DNA of 43,563 nucleotides from Acidobacteriota bacterium (GTDB taxonomy: Bacteria; Acidobacteriota; Blastocatellia; Chloracidobacteriales; Chloracidobacteriaceae). The notes under the pieces are model-generated. The model made no database searches, was not told where the DNA came from, and worked only from the letters and a program-made list of their open reading frames with translations. Within the stretch, counting starts at the first letter, position 1; each line of letters begins with the position of its first letter. Both the position numbers and the translations under genes were made by a program. This document shows positions 9,182-43,442 of this stretch, in pieces. The stretch lies in the NCBI GenBank assembly GCA_016208495.1, contig JACQXX010000035.1, positions 1-43,563 of the forward strand, in the 5' to 3' direction.

Positions 9182-9348
9182 CAGGGTTCAGGGTTCAGGG
9201 TTCAGGGCCAGATACTCCACGTTGAGTGGTACCCGCCAGTTCCCCAGTCTTCATCTTGAGTGGGATCAGTCAACTCATCGCCGAAACCCTGAACCCTGCA
9301 CCCTGAACCCGATTTCAGTGGGATTTTATTTTCTTCTGGGTCCCTCAG
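9182..9348 (-). repeat. GGGTTCA element, copy A
   Basis: On the minus strand this begins CTGAGGGACCC, then an A-rich stretch, GGGTTCA words, a core of about 80 bases and reverse-complement CCCTGAA words. It matches 43290-43442 in the opposite orientation almost perfectly: one base substitution and one extra heptamer in each arm. The eda-like stop codon TGA is part of it. A partial third copy is at 27603-27646. Confidence 0.85.
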
Positions 9349-33584: not shown

Positions 33585-35144
33585 TCATTTCTCAGACTTC
33601 TTGAGAAGCTCCAGGGCGGCGCTGATGGGAACACCTAAGCTAGCCTGGATTCGTTCCTGCTCATCGAGCATCACCTGAGCATTTATCCCAACCACTTTTC
33701 CATAACTATTAAAAATGGGACTTCCTGAACCACCTTCAGTGGTCTGGGCATCATGGACAATTCGTCCAGTAATAAACTGGGTGATATGGCCCTGAGATAC
33801 TTTGGGGTAAATGTATCCGCGGTTTGAGAGTTCGGCAGCCAGATCGCTAAACGTCATTCGCTTGCGCAGTTCGTCTTTTAATCGCTCATCAGGAAGCGCT
33901 TCACGAATTCCTTCCACGCCGGTCGGATACCCTAACAGCACAATTCCTTGACCCGTCATGTTTTTGGTTTCTTCCGAAGTATCGAGTGGCAATTGCGGAA
34001 TTGCGGCATCACCCTGGGTAAAGCTGCATAGCGCCACATCGTTTTCAGATGAGATTTGCAAAACTTTGAGTGGGAACGAAGTTTTAATCCCCGGAAAATA
34101 AGCATTCAATTCCTGGATCTCAGGTTTGCCACCAAGGCTATTAATCAAAATACTGTCAGTTGGATCATTAAACCAGGGTTGAGCAATGTGCCGGTTGGTA
34201 ACAAGTTTGCCCTCGGCAACGACAAATCCGGTGCCGGTAAATTGCTCATAATAAATGTCGCCGGTTCCTTCAAAACTCACTTGCAAACTGCCATCCGCAG
34301 CCAGCGGTGTACTCTGGTTAAAACTATTGTCAATAAAGCGTAACGGCTTGTTGGTCTGGCGATTCGTGAACGAATACGTGCCCTCAATTAAACACACGCC
34401 TGGCCCATAGGATTGAGCAATGTTTTGTCCAGAATTGAGGACGTTTTTGAGCGAGTCAACTTCCTGTCGCAGTGCTTCATTTTTGGTCAGTAAATCTTCC
34501 AGTTGACTCTCCGCCGCCCGGCTCAGATTGGAAAAGCGGTCTAGAATTTCGTAGTACCGCATGACTCCAACAAAGACAATTCCGGTTGAAACCAGAATGC
34601 ACAGTGGAATCACCAGCGACAAAATAATGGCAAAAACCCGCGCCCAGGGCGGGATCTCACCATAGAGCGCCACAATCAACTCCTTGGCAAACCGTGATGC
34701 CGTACGTGGGTGAATTCGCCCGCCCATATCAACTTCGGGAAATTGTAAATGGGCATTGCGAACACCAGTTTTGGTTTCCTCGATTTCTTGAACCACGTGG
34801 ACCAGGAGTTCAGTTGGCAGATGGAGTTCAGATGTTTTTACGGCCTGGAGTGACAGCAAGTCCCCATCCGACAGAGGGATAGGCCCATCATTGGTTGTAG
34901 CGGGTTTTCGATTGACAAGGAGGGAGTAATGCTCTGGGTCACGGAAGAAGAGGTCAAAATTGTGTTTTTGCCGATAGATCTCAGCCACAATCAGACGTCT
35001 CGGGAAGTCCCCATTGTGAGTCGCCGGAATATTTAACGGCAAATCACAACCTTCGTCAGGACCGAGGGTAATTGCTTCTTGGTCAAAAATTAACGTTTTA
35101 CCACGTTCTTCACCGGAGAGGTGAACAACCATCAGGCTCGCCAT
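33585..35144 (-). CDS. FHA-like/membrane/trypsin-like serine protease fusion
   Basis: 519 residues. Residues 1-110 look like a degenerate FHA domain (GKTLIFDQEAITLGPDEGCD, then YSLLVNRKPATTNDGPIPLS and DGDLLSL), without a clear phosphothreonine-binding S-x-x-H. A membrane segment (VFAIILSLVIPLCILVSTGI) lies near 165-190, a coiled coil (RAAESQLEDLLTKNEALRQE) near 210-240, then a chymotrypsin-fold S1C-like domain with VTNRHIAQPW (His), ENDVALCSF (Asp) and TTEGGSGSPIFN (Ser). No PDZ domain follows. This suggests a cytosolic sensor controlling a periplasmic protease. It is convergent with lpxA. Confidence 0.82.
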   Translation of the reverse strand: MASLMVVHLSGEERGKTLIFDQEAITLGPDEGCDLPLNIPATHNGDFPRRLIVAEIYRQKHNFDLFFRDPEHYSLLVNRKPATTNDGPIPLSDGDLLSLQAVKTSELHLPTELLVHVVQEIEETKTGVRNAHLQFPEVDMGGRIHPRTASRFAKELIVALYGEIPPWARVFAIILSLVIPLCILVSTGIVFVGVMRYYEILDRFSNLSRAAESQLEDLLTKNEALRQEVDSLKNVLNSGQNIAQSYGPGVCLIEGTYSFTNRQTNKPLRFIDNSFNQSTPLAADGSLQVSFEGTGDIYYEQFTGTGFVVAEGKLVTNRHIAQPWFNDPTDSILINSLGGKPEIQELNAYFPGIKTSFPLKVLQISSENDVALCSFTQGDAAIPQLPLDTSEETKNMTGQGIVLLGYPTGVEGIREALPDERLKDELRKRMTFSDLAAELSNRGYIYPKVSQGHITQFITGRIVHDAQTTEGGSGSPIFNSYGKVVGINAQVMLDEQERIQASLGVPISAALELLKKSEK

Positions 35145-35331: not shown

Positions 35332-36636
35332 TTAGCGTCTTCCAATCCCTAAATACCGGAAGCCATGCTTTCGAACCAGTCTGGCGTCATACATGTTGCG
35401 CAGATCAGCAATGGCTGGAGTTCGCATCAGGTCTTTCAAGCGACCAAGCTCCAGTTTGCGATAAATGTTCCATTCAGTGGCAAAAATCAAAACATCACAC
35501 CCTTGAGCCGTGTCATAGGGATCTTCAAAAAACTCAGTTTTCGAAAGGCAAGTTTTGGCTTCTTTGTTTGCCACGGGGTCAGTCGCCCGTAATTGAACGC
35601 CCAGTTTGACCAGTTCGGAGGCAACCCACATCGCCGGTGATTCGCGCAAGTCACTGGTCTCGGGCTTAAAGGTCAATCCCAAAATTCCAGCCACTTTTCC
35701 TTCGACCTGCCGGTCAAGCAATTCCACCACTTTGTCCAGTGCAACCTCGTGCTGTCGCTGATTGACTTCAACCACTGATCTTACAATTTTCAAATCATAT
35801 CCAGCCGAATTGGCCAGATGGACCAGTGCCTGCGTATCTTTTGGAAAACAAGAACCACCATATCCTGGCCCAGGATACAAAAATTTGTTCCCAATTCGAC
35901 TATCAAGCCCCATCCCACGCGCAACGTCCTGCACATCGCATCCCAAAACATCGCTCAAATTTGCCATTTCATTGATGAATGAAATTTTGGTGGCCAGAAA
36001 AGCGTTGGAGGCATATTTGATCAATTCGGCGGTTTCGAGTGATGTAATCACCATCGGCACGCCAACCTGGGTTAACGGGCTATAGATGTCTTGCAAGATG
36101 GCAATAGCTTCTGAATCCTGACACCCGATAACAACCCGTTCGGGCCGCAGAAAATCATTGATTGCATCCCCTTCGCGTAAAAACTCCGGATTGGAAGCCA
36201 CACTAAAGCGATGATCACCGCAAGCATGTTCTTCGATCACCCGGCGAATAAATTGACCGGTGCCAGTTGGAACCGTGCTTTTGGTCACAATCACCTTATA
36301 TCCATTGAGCGCTGGTGCAATCTGGAGGGCAACCTGTTCAATTTGAGATAAATCCGGGCTTCCATCTGATTTGGGTGGGGTTCCAACGGCAATAAACACC
36401 ACGAGGGCGCGTTCAACCGCCGCCCGAAGATTGGTGGTAAATTGAATGCGCCCGGCCCGCAAATTTTTTTCAATTAATTCATGAAGCCCCGGTTCATAAA
36501 TCGGTATCTGGCCTTCATTCAAGCCAGCGATTTTCGCCTCATCAATGTCCACACAAGTGACTTTGACACCAAATTCAGCAAAACATGCGCCGGTTACCAA
36601 ACCAACGTAGCCTGTTCCAACAATTGCAATGTTCAT
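35332..36636 (-). CDS. UDP-glucose 6-dehydrogenase
   Basis: 434 residues, full length for the UDP-glucose/GDP-mannose dehydrogenase family. It opens with a Rossmann fold (MNIAIVGTGYVGLVTGACFA), has the PTGTGQF and ASNPEFLREG segments, a central helix with KYASNAFLATKISFINEMA, and the catalytic C263 in PGYGGSCFPKDT. It oxidises UDP-glucose to UDP-glucuronate for exopolysaccharide or lipid A decoration. It is 70 bases downstream of the Hint gene and may be co-transcribed with it. Confidence 0.93.
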   Translation of the reverse strand: MNIAIVGTGYVGLVTGACFAEFGVKVTCVDIDEAKIAGLNEGQIPIYEPGLHELIEKNLRAGRIQFTTNLRAAVERALVVFIAVGTPPKSDGSPDLSQIEQVALQIAPALNGYKVIVTKSTVPTGTGQFIRRVIEEHACGDHRFSVASNPEFLREGDAINDFLRPERVVIGCQDSEAIAILQDIYSPLTQVGVPMVITSLETAELIKYASNAFLATKISFINEMANLSDVLGCDVQDVARGMGLDSRIGNKFLYPGPGYGGSCFPKDTQALVHLANSAGYDLKIVRSVVEVNQRQHEVALDKVVELLDRQVEGKVAGILGLTFKPETSDLRESPAMWVASELVKLGVQLRATDPVANKEAKTCLSKTEFFEDPYDTAQGCDVLIFATEWNIYRKLELGRLKDLMRTPAIADLRNMYDARLVRKHGFRYLGIGRR

Positions 36637-36706: not shown

Positions 36707-37270
36707 TTACAGCGGAATACAGTTATGGACATAAATCCCATAAGACGTTGCAAAAGTATGGGTATCATCCACTTCCATCGAATAGACTGTTGTTGAGGCC
36801 GTACAGGTCACCAGCCCCTTGATCGGAATCGTGGCGACAGTTCCCTGCCAGTACAACGGGACACGATCCCCCTCCTTCAGGCTGGCTGCTGGGCGGACAG
36901 CGAGCTGATCACCTTCAAAAACAATCATTGGATGTTGATCGGTCACCGTCACCCGGCGATTGTCATTCGTCACCACATAAATCAACTTCCCCTCATATGG
37001 CCGCCGAAACAAGTACCGCACGGGCTTCCAAACAGCTTGTTGCTCGGCCATATCAATTGCCAAAGCATAGAGATACGGCTTGTAAATGACATCGGTCCGA
37101 CCGCCAGCCTGGAAATGCCGTGTTCGATGCAGGGTCATTTGTTCAGCAAACAACACCGAAAGCGACAACACCCGATGAACACCGGTTTCGGCCTGAACGG
37201 TTACTGTTTCATCGCCAATCAGGCAATGACCGTTGGTCTCAAACTGGTCTGCACACATGTTGTTTTCCAT
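36707..37270 (-). CDS. Free-standing intein-like (Hint) protein
   Basis: 187 residues from MENNM. It has all splicing-domain blocks of an intein: block A beginning C16 (CLIGDETVTVQAETG), block B with a TxxH motif (VTDQHPMIV), and the C-terminal VYSMEVDDTHTFATSYG and GIYVHN ending at N183, followed by C184 and just IPL before the stop. There is no homing endonuclease insert: the Hint part is about 168 residues. The flanks are only 15 and 4 residues, so no host protein is present. It could splice to a 19-residue peptide, cleave, or be inert. The ATG is chosen over a TTG start 19 codons upstream; neither has a good ribosome-binding site. Confidence 0.8.
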   Translation of the reverse strand: MENNMCADQFETNGHCLIGDETVTVQAETGVHRVLSLSVLFAEQMTLHRTRHFQAGGRTDVIYKPYLYALAIDMAEQQAVWKPVRYLFRRPYEGKLIYVVTNDNRRVTVTDQHPMIVFEGDQLAVRPAASLKEGDRVPLYWQGTVATIPIKGLVTCTASTTVYSMEVDDTHTFATSYGIYVHNCIPL

Positions 37271-37451
37271 AGGGGGAGTGATTGATTGTGGAATGGAGGG
37301 TTGGGCACAGAAGGGCGATACTGACAAACCGCGGAAGGGATGTCAACAGAGGATCCAGCGGGAAATGGCTTGAACCCAAAAGCGTTGACTGGTATCTTGG
37401 CGGGTCATTTTCCAACCTCAGTCCATCTCTATTATTTCAGGAATCATACTT

Positions 37452-37871
37452 ATGGCCAATCGCCTTACTTTGGAAATTGTTACTCCCGACCGATTACTGC
37501 TTCATAAAGAAGCCGATGAAATCACCGTTCCCGGCCTGAATGGGGAAATGGGAATCCTTCCCGGCCACACCCCTTTGATCTCACAATTGAGCGTGGCGGG
37601 GCTGGTCAGTTATCGCAATGGAAACGAACAGGGCCTGGCTTTTGTCAGCCAGGGATTTGTGGAAGTGATGCCCGACCGCGTTACGATTTTGGCTGAACGG
37701 GCGCAACTCCCTGAAGAAATTGACCTTGCCAAGGCCAAGACTGCACTTCAGGAGGCCGAACGTGTTCTCAAGAGTGCTGAAAGAGATGCCAGCATTGACA
37801 TCGAAAAAGCACTGGCGGCACTCGACAGCGCCATTGTACAGGTTCAGGTAGCCGAACGCACCAAACGCTAG
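37452..37871 (+). CDS. atpC: F1F0 ATP synthase epsilon subunit
   Basis: 139 residues. The N-terminal beta-sandwich (LTLEIVTPDRLLLHKEADEI, PGLNGEMGILPGHTPLIS) and the C-terminal helical hairpin (EEIDLAKAKTALQEAERVLK) are both complete. Epsilon is the rotating inhibitory subunit of the F1 sector. Usually it follows atpD; here it stands alone with the Hint gene divergent and rfaE1 convergent, so the rest of the complex must be encoded elsewhere. AGGA lies about 9 bases before the ATG. Confidence 0.93.
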   Translation: MANRLTLEIVTPDRLLLHKEADEITVPGLNGEMGILPGHTPLISQLSVAGLVSYRNGNEQGLAFVSQGFVEVMPDRVTILAERAQLPEEIDLAKAKTALQEAERVLKSAERDASIDIEKALAALDSAIVQVQVAERTKR

Positions 37872-43289: not shown

Positions 43290-43442
43290 CTGAGGGACCC
43301 AGAAGAAAATAAAATCCCACTGAAATCGGGTTCAGGGTTCAGGGTTTCGGCGATGAGTTGACTGATCCCACTCAAGATGAAGACTGGGGAACTGGCGGGT
43401 ACCACGCAACGTGGAGTATCTGGCCCTGAACCCTGAACCCTG
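43290..43442 (+). repeat. GGGTTCA element, copy B
   Basis: CTGAGGGACCC, A-rich stretch, two GGTTCAGG-type units, 80-base core, and reverse-complement CCCTGAA units. It is the near-identical opposite-orientation copy of 9182-9348. Inside the core CCACGCAACGTGG is a perfect 5-bp hairpin that has one mismatch in copy A. Confidence 0.85.

Follow-up and report, generated by a model that had tools for sequence, protein, structure and literature searches.

A free-standing mini-intein gene in two genera of Blastocatellia retains its splicing residues and is under purifying selection

Inteins normally survive only within the gene for a host enzyme and are widely seen as parasites kept honest by the protein that they interrupt. 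In the stretch of DNA analyzed here (the window: 43,563 nucleotides, contig JACQXX010000035.1 of assembly GCA_016208495.1, from a member of the Acidobacteriota class Blastocatellia), we find an intein-derived gene that stands alone, encodes all of its splicing residues, and recurs beside the same neighbor in a second genus of the same family. The reading that we favor, and consider probable, is that this gene (the orphan) encodes a class-1-type mini-intein that lost its host, a ‘WecC-type’ nucleotide-sugar dehydrogenase gene, and that it has been kept as a free gene by selection on the Hint domain. We use ‘WecC type’ as shorthand for the GGHCIP dehydrogenases, that is, a type defined by motif rather than by substrate. 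The features of the locus (with G001 as the second genome) are:

33585..35144 (-), gene whose product is FHA/trypsin-like by eye; follows ugd in either genome (64.7% identity)
35332..36636 (-), UDP-glucose dehydrogenase gene ugd, GGSCFPKD type (TIGR03026, 468 bits; motif; same neighbor in G001)
36707..37270 (-), free-standing mini-intein gene, 187 residues (translation; intein profiles; sister copy in G001)
36707..36721 (-), C-flank CIPL and stop (matches the C-extein start in relatives)
36722..37225 (-), intein core C16-N183, 168 residues, without endonuclease domain (alignment with 12 relatives; model; fold match; codon constraint)
37226..37270 (-), N-flank, 15 residues, ending in NGH (translation; comparison with the sister copy and host-borne copies)
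37283..37334 (-), stretch that aligns with the region immediately preceding the sister orphan (local score 33)
37452..37871 (+), ATP synthase epsilon-like gene (atpC-like, named by eye), divergent upstream neighbor (relative likewise in G001)

The orphan comprises 187 codons and a stop, read on the minus strand from an ATG at 37270 to a TAA at 36707; an in-frame TTG at 37327, 57 bases upstream of the ATG, opens a frame of 206 residues, and either codon may be the true start. The residues of the splicing blocks are C16, T110-D-Q-H113 (block B His113), H171 (block F), H182-N183, and C184; the original prediction of an orphan with every splicing residue was correct. That prediction had also called a stand-alone gene next to UDP-glucose dehydrogenase unusual, and we agree: no host protein is recognizable around the orphan, and ugd starts 70 bp downstream of it. 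In all three frames of the minus strand, read by eye across some 230 bases upstream of the orphan and downstream as far as ugd, we recognized no host reading frame; a frameshifted host gene around the orphan was rejected because these frames show no recognizable extein. The orphan is the only copy in the 8.38-Mb window genome (a draft in 177 contigs), where one further match (E 0.29) has three stops. Viral carriage was rejected, as a close-relative scan of viral contigs gave no match.

The orphan exceeds the cut-offs of two intein profiles, TIGR01445 (30.9 bits; cut-off 24.5) and TIGR01443 (25.7 bits; cut-off 15.6), so it is not a chance resemblance to an intein. It falls 2.7 bits short of the cut-off for Pfam Intein_splicing (PF14890; 33.1 vs 35.8), which the sister copy exceeds (37.1), and it matches the Hint-type family PF07591 below cut-off (24.8 vs 27.7); TIGR03026, the NDP-sugar dehydrogenase family, is not among the families that it matches. 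An AlphaFold2 model calculated from an alignment of 13 sequences has a mean pLDDT of 89.7 and a pTM of 0.82, with values below 50 at residues 1-11 only. When this model was compared with solved structures using Foldseek, mini-inteins came out on top; the closest is the RadA mini-intein of Pyrococcus horikoshii (4e2u; E 6.5e-14, TM 0.88 by target length, 21% identity), which likewise has no endonuclease but, unlike the host-less orphan, is borne by RadA, and its splicing responds to single-stranded DNA according to the accessible text of PMC8987985. The catalytic set of the orphan is intact as read from its translation, and its predicted fold is intact as well; because all splicing residues are present and this fold is retained, standard class 1 splicing is expected by default, and we infer that the orphan splices itself.

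In the accessible text of Tori and Perler (2011; PMC3196547), class 1 inteins have Cys, Ser, or Thr at intein position 1, a block B His, a C-terminal Asn, and a +1 nucleophile, and class 3 inteins lack the N-terminal nucleophile and have Trp, Cys, and Thr at B:12, F:4, and G:5. The orphan has the class 1 residues (C16, H113, H182-N183, and C184) and differs from class 3 in having C16 and, in block B, HPM with Met at the Trp position. Except for the Pfam cut-off, it has the attributes of a splicing domain, that is, a Hint fold with N- and C-terminal splicing motifs. It is not inserted in frame in a host protein (its flanks are 15 and 4 residues long), and, with no insert between blocks B and F, where homing inteins carry a LAGLIDADG endonuclease, it is not a homing intein; PF14528 is present in the relative from G033. 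Judged by its sequence, the orphan is derived from an intein and should work like one, and it is not an intein in the strict sense, its host being absent.

The 11 host-borne relatives (G018, G033, G269, G216, G324, G430, G431, G435, G444, G457, and planctomycete contig JACOTG010000118.1) all interrupt a WecC-type nucleotide-sugar dehydrogenase at GGH/C...HN/C, where slashes mark the splice junctions. The N-extein ends in GGH in every copy, the extraction pattern having required G[GAS]H, and the C-extein starts with CIPL in 10 copies and with CIPI in one. These copies reside in open frames of 639-958 residues, e.g., about 915-921 residues in the planctomycete contig and 941 residues in G033, where the ORF contains the complete trio of dehydrogenase domains, NAD-binding, central, and UDP-binding (PF03721, PF00984, and PF03720), and scores 412 bits for TIGR03026. 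The C-extein in G033 starts with CIPLDPHYLSWK, the opening four residues of which are the same as the orphan C-flank CIPL; the final two residues of the orphan N-flank NGH are those of the host-borne N-extein GGH. The dehydrogenase family has an invariant catalytic Cys260, as described in the accessible text of PMC4794789, and the +1 Cys after the splice junction occupies its position. Because the host-borne junctions and the position of Cys260 agree, NGH/C...HN/CIPL in the orphan can be recognized as the remainder of the dehydrogenase active-site motif, and the orphan evidently originates from a dehydrogenase intein. Its core is 39-47% identical to those of ten host-borne copies and 33% identical to that of G324. 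It shares with the host-borne inteins their lineage, the GH/C...HN/CIP context, and the splicing residues; in contrast, they lie within a host and nine of the 11 have endonuclease motifs (identified with motif patterns; absent in G431, 181 aa, and G216, 237 aa), whereas the orphan has neither host nor endonuclease.

This origin settles several points raised by the original prediction. Its own alternative, that homologues would reveal the flanks to be pieces of a longer host gene broken by frameshifts, stands as regards the longer gene and not as regards the frameshifts, since no frameshifted remainder is recognizable here by eye. A CaaX-like nature of the CIPL tail is rejected, because CIPL is the start of the dehydrogenase C-extein, that is, its first four residues in 10 of the 11 copies. 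An affinity to bacterial intein-like (BIL) domains can likewise be dropped: the orphan has the +1 Cys and sits in the lineage of dehydrogenase inteins, and it is best placed with true inteins, not with the BIL type. Among the host-borne copies, the splicing part of the G431 intein (L046 1510-2052) has as its nearest relative the full-length intein of G430, from the same genus (support 99), which points to a probable loss of the endonuclease inside one genus; the endonuclease-less copy of G216 is located at L034 1156-1866. A further dehydrogenase, at 64278-65657 of G018:C46, matches TIGR03026 in two separate stretches within one 511-aa open frame.

A survey of 58 relatives identified a sister orphan in G001 (Blastocatellia bacterium SSF51, contig JAIBAN010000060.1; the record is a MAG), which belongs to a different genus of the same family; the two proteins are 74% identical over 172 residues. 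The sister copy also has no endonuclease, retains every splicing residue, C184 included, and has ugd directly downstream, and the two orphans form one clade in the intein tree (support 100). Their N-flanks are without evident similarity and their C-flanks have only CIP in common; in G001 the codons after CIP belong to a 7-base repeat array that forms the end of the frame. The suggestion that homologues be sought with the same short flanks and genomic context was thus borne out for the context, with one sister at the same locus, and not for the flanks, which have diverged. Facing 7-base repeat arrays (GTTCAGG and CCTGAAC, about 60-75 bp apart) are found twice in the window (9185-9309 and 43329-43439) and once in the 15-kb G001 stretch (L010 7471-7610), directly behind the CIP codons of the orphan; they look like a small dispersed inverted-repeat element.

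No orphans beyond those of the window genome (G000) and G001 were found in overlapping sets of 58, 396, 162, and 294 genomes, with matches in six of the 396 genomes of the phylum, in 10 of the 162 of the class, and in three of the 294 of the planctomycete’s phylum, the last all in long frames (e.g., 927 in G659 and 1144 in G688). The free intein is known only from two genomes, both apparently in draft form. A survey of the 162 class genomes with TIGR01445 listed four other matches with open frames below 250 aa (the G001 orphan is absent from the matches listed). We rejected each short frame as an orphan: those of G503 and G451 are broken by frame changes (by eye), that of G436 runs off a contig end, as do the frames of G442 (294 aa) and G452 (278 aa), and the Hint-like ORF of G446 is of another type. 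The G446 ORF (L061, C17 15772-16005, minus strand) is a 227-codon open frame with CFTGETLV...VHNL, host-less and without a +1 Cys (by eye), and is possibly a free BIL-like protein. The G503 and G451 frames, in dCTP-deaminase-like (L060, G503:C48) and radical-SAM-like (L062, G451:C31) genes, respectively (named by eye), break inside the intein, and either decay or sequencing error may be the reason. Inteins are common in this class of bacteria: TIGR01445 matches with E values of 1e-4 or below occur in 63 of the 162 genomes, with 16 matches in G033 and six in the window genome.

Over 168 core codons the two orphans have a pN of 0.170 and a pS of 0.749, that is, a ratio of 0.23 (bootstrap 0.165-0.300), or 0.222 with a slightly different choice of columns; synonymous sites are saturated, so these ratios are approximate. 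Core divergence at codon positions 1, 2, and 3 is 0.25, 0.11, and 0.60. A selected gene on the antisense strand was rejected, because a divergence of 0.60 at position 3 vs 0.11 at position 2 fits the sense frame and because, compared by eye, the antisense ORFs in one genome seem unrelated to those in the other. Between the same genomes, the whole ugd gene (pN 0.139, pS 0.721) is more constrained than the orphan, and the FHA/trypsin-like neighbor has a pN of 0.232 and a pS of 0.753. The values of dN are 0.191 for the orphan, 0.201 for the WecC-type gene, 0.172 for the lpxA-like gene, 0.162 for the atpC-like gene, and 0.092 for the N-part of ugd.

In 28 pairs of host-borne inteins, pN/pS ranges from 0.145 to 0.607 and is above that of the orphans in all but one; these pairs come from eight of the 11 copies (G018, G033, G269, G430, G431, G435, G444, and G457) with unequal divergence times and saturated synonymous sites, and we read the comparison only as saying that the orphans are not less constrained than inteins obliged to splice. 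The ratio of intein dN to N-extein dN has a median of 1.86 (0.77-3.84) in the same pairs; for the orphan it is 2.09 relative to the N-part of ugd and 0.95 relative to the WecC-type gene. In a neutral simulation at the third-position rate, which treats all base changes as equal and serves as a rough guide, the frame remained open in one of 2000 runs and identity never exceeded 24%. The two orphans agree at 35 of the 37 columns that are near-invariant in host-borne inteins and at 90 of the 131 others (Fisher p = 0.001); each has the host-borne residue at 32 of the 37, and none of the five departures is a listed splicing residue. Taken at the codon level, these comparisons show that both free inteins are under purifying selection.

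The order orphan-ugd-FHA/trypsin is found in both genera, with the lpxA-like gene further on and the atpC-like gene nearby; the latter starts 181 bp upstream of the orphan on the opposite strand, and in G001 two genes intervene. Because the gap between orphan and ugd is short in both genomes (70 bp in the window and about 100 bp in G001) and the strand is the same, the two genes are probably on one transcript. Upstream of the orphans, the alignment score of 33 was reached by seven of 1000 dinucleotide shuffles (best 40), and that of a longer stretch by nine of 1000; downstream, the score was reached by 804 of 1000 shuffles, that is, the downstream DNA of the two orphans does not align.

Dehydrogenases of the TIGR03026-type family occur in all 14 genomes searched of the order. 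In four of four genomes of the order’s other family (f2), a WecC-type gene immediately precedes ugd on the same strand; in the orphan’s own family this arrangement is found in none of 10, of which G002 has no ugd match. The ugd-linked genes of f2 carry no intein: the two that were read have the motif GGHCIPLDP, and all four are full-length open frames of 444-452 aa. Both orphan genomes retain a different WecC-type gene elsewhere, with GGHCIPIDPFYLTWK, which in the extein tree groups with the G002 and G003 genes (support 100), apart from the f2 genes; the CIPL of the orphan agrees with the f2 genes and with 10 of the 11 intein hosts and disagrees with this retained gene. In the same tree, support for a group of the f2 genes and the main intein hosts is only 65, and the hosts in G216 and G324 join the retained gene of the orphan’s family (support 90), not the ugd-linked f2 genes; in the intein tree, the orphans group with the inteins of G216, G324, and the planctomycete (support 66). 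An origin from the ugd-linked type of dehydrogenase is thus not confirmed by the trees. The case for loss in place is one of gene order, because no extein remnant is left beyond GH and CIPL; we infer that the host gene was lost at the ugd-adjacent locus, and a single ancestral orphaning is likely, though not proven. A heptose-kinase-like neighbor (by eye) of the G033 host was rejected as a clue to the locus, being unseen at the other host loci and in the G001 stretch; this check is weak, as the ORF filter hid the G033 kinase itself and the G216 locus gave no output.

We propose that the intein once sat in the gene for a WecC-type nucleotide-sugar dehydrogenase, which most likely adjoined ugd on its upstream side, and that, after another dehydrogenase copy took over, the intein-bearing gene at the position seen in f2 was lost except for the intein; this loss would have occurred in a common ancestor of the two genera, which belong to a single Blastocatellia family. 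At present the gene would be maintained by selection acting on the Hint domain itself. Once folded, the protein would process itself by an N-S shift at C16, branch formation to C184, and cyclization of N183; splicing would yield a 168-residue free Hint protein and a joined stub of 15 + 4 residues, the sequence of which is unconserved. Because the stub is unconserved, the selected function would reside in the Hint protein or in its self-processing, and the free intein presumably has a function in the host cell. More specifically, the orphan may be a domesticated intein, that is, one that lost endonuclease and host, kept its splicing machinery intact, and now serves the cell as free Hint protein or by self-processing, plausibly linked to the ugd operon; we offer this version tentatively. 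A role as modulator of the ugd operon or of its enzyme is a guess that we regard as doubtful.

The closeness of ugd invites another reading, that selection acts only against harm or polarity, a broken or misfolding product of the first gene being toxic or silencing ugd and the protein itself being useless. Only 70 bp separate the orphan from ugd, the strand is the same, the order is common to two genera, and the gap contains no terminator-like site (one scan match lies just inside ugd). However, polarity guards a reading frame and not amino acids, and a pN/pS of 0.22-0.23, with agreement concentrated at intein-critical columns, would not follow from it; the heptamer-repeat arrays between orphan and ugd in G001 also argue against tight coupling. 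We consider this reading unlikely. Quite unlikely, too, are two independent orphanings, in which each genus shed the exteins on its own and only recently and the constraint that we measure is the old constraint of the host-borne state. Host-borne inteins are indeed constrained (pN/pS 0.145-0.607 in the 28 pairs), and only two orphans exist in the data; however, the two are at the same locus, both lack the endonuclease, their upstream DNA is alignable, and both exteins would have to be lost twice.

The original prediction had also allowed for a relic, which is apt for the history of the gene and not for its state, the core being under purifying selection (pN/pS 0.22-0.23). A decaying, functionless relic of the lost dehydrogenase that survives by chance, as Tori and Perler expect of extein-less inteins, would account for the absent host gene and the unconserved flanks, and it has a precedent in Arth_1007, an inactive pseudogene with 66 extein residues in all (PMC3196547, accessible text). 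It would not account for 74% protein identity and an open frame in both genomes despite saturated synonymous sites, when neutral simulation never exceeded 24%, nor for a dN close to the one measured between the WecC-type genes of these two genomes and the retention of all splicing residues; we judge it improbable. A peptide-maturation device, also suggested by the original prediction, in which splicing would serve to make the 19-residue peptide MENNMCADQFETNGH-CIPL, is highly improbable: the splicing residues and short flanks would yield such a peptide, but the N-flank has no evident similarity in the sister copy, the C-flanks have only CIP in common, the C-tail of the sister is translated heptamer repeat, and the common flank residues are explained by descent from the dehydrogenase.

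The preferred reading, a host-less mini-intein kept by selection on its Hint domain, can be compared with known systems. A-type BIL domains reside in variable secreted host proteins. The Hint fold is common to BIL and pretoxin HINT domains and the orphan; A-type BILs are often without a +1 nucleophile (PMC5874633, accessible text), whereas the orphan has C184, which is kept in the sister, and groups with the dehydrogenase inteins. Halobacteria are already known to have an intein, ‘udp’, in their UDP-glucose 6-dehydrogenase (PMC4071816); as far as the accessible text describes it, its host is of the same dehydrogenase superfamily as the orphan’s former host, and it is host-borne and archaeal, whereas the orphan is bacterial and has no host.

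The nearest precedent that we found is Arth_1007 of Arthrobacter FB24, which the accessible text of Tori and Perler (2011; PMC3196547) describes as a class 3 intein with exteins of 52 + 14 residues and no recognizable host; it has lost the block B His, failed to splice, and was judged a pseudogene, and its authors saw no selection left to retain an inactive extein and intein. The orphan is likewise an intein gene with short exteins and no recognizable host; unlike Arth_1007, it retains all of its listed splicing residues and, with a pN/pS of 0.22-0.23 between two genera, is under purifying selection, neither of which fits a pseudogene. Yeast HO and WHO are intein-derived, independently expressed, and extein-less, and HO is domesticated; according to the accessible text of PMC7282813, both retain the endonuclease, have gained a zinc finger, and are devoid of block G, and splicing is absent in HO. 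The orphan differs from them in having lost the endonuclease and retained the splicing residues. Among the best open-access literature matches we found no free-standing intein with intact splicing residues; a report in a subscription journal could be missed.

An intein without an extein is expected to decay, as was argued for Arth_1007 (PMC3196547, accessible text); the orphan instead appears to have outlived its host gene, with a conservation similar to that of a dehydrogenase gene in the same two genomes (dN 0.19 vs 0.20) and below that of ugd. If the orphan is domesticated, its fate would be the reverse of that of HO, which retained the nuclease and lost splicing. As a small bacterial class-1-type mini-intein with minimal exteins, it may be of interest to protein engineers. 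The question of whether an intein can benefit a cell by itself would be directly testable in this 187-residue protein.
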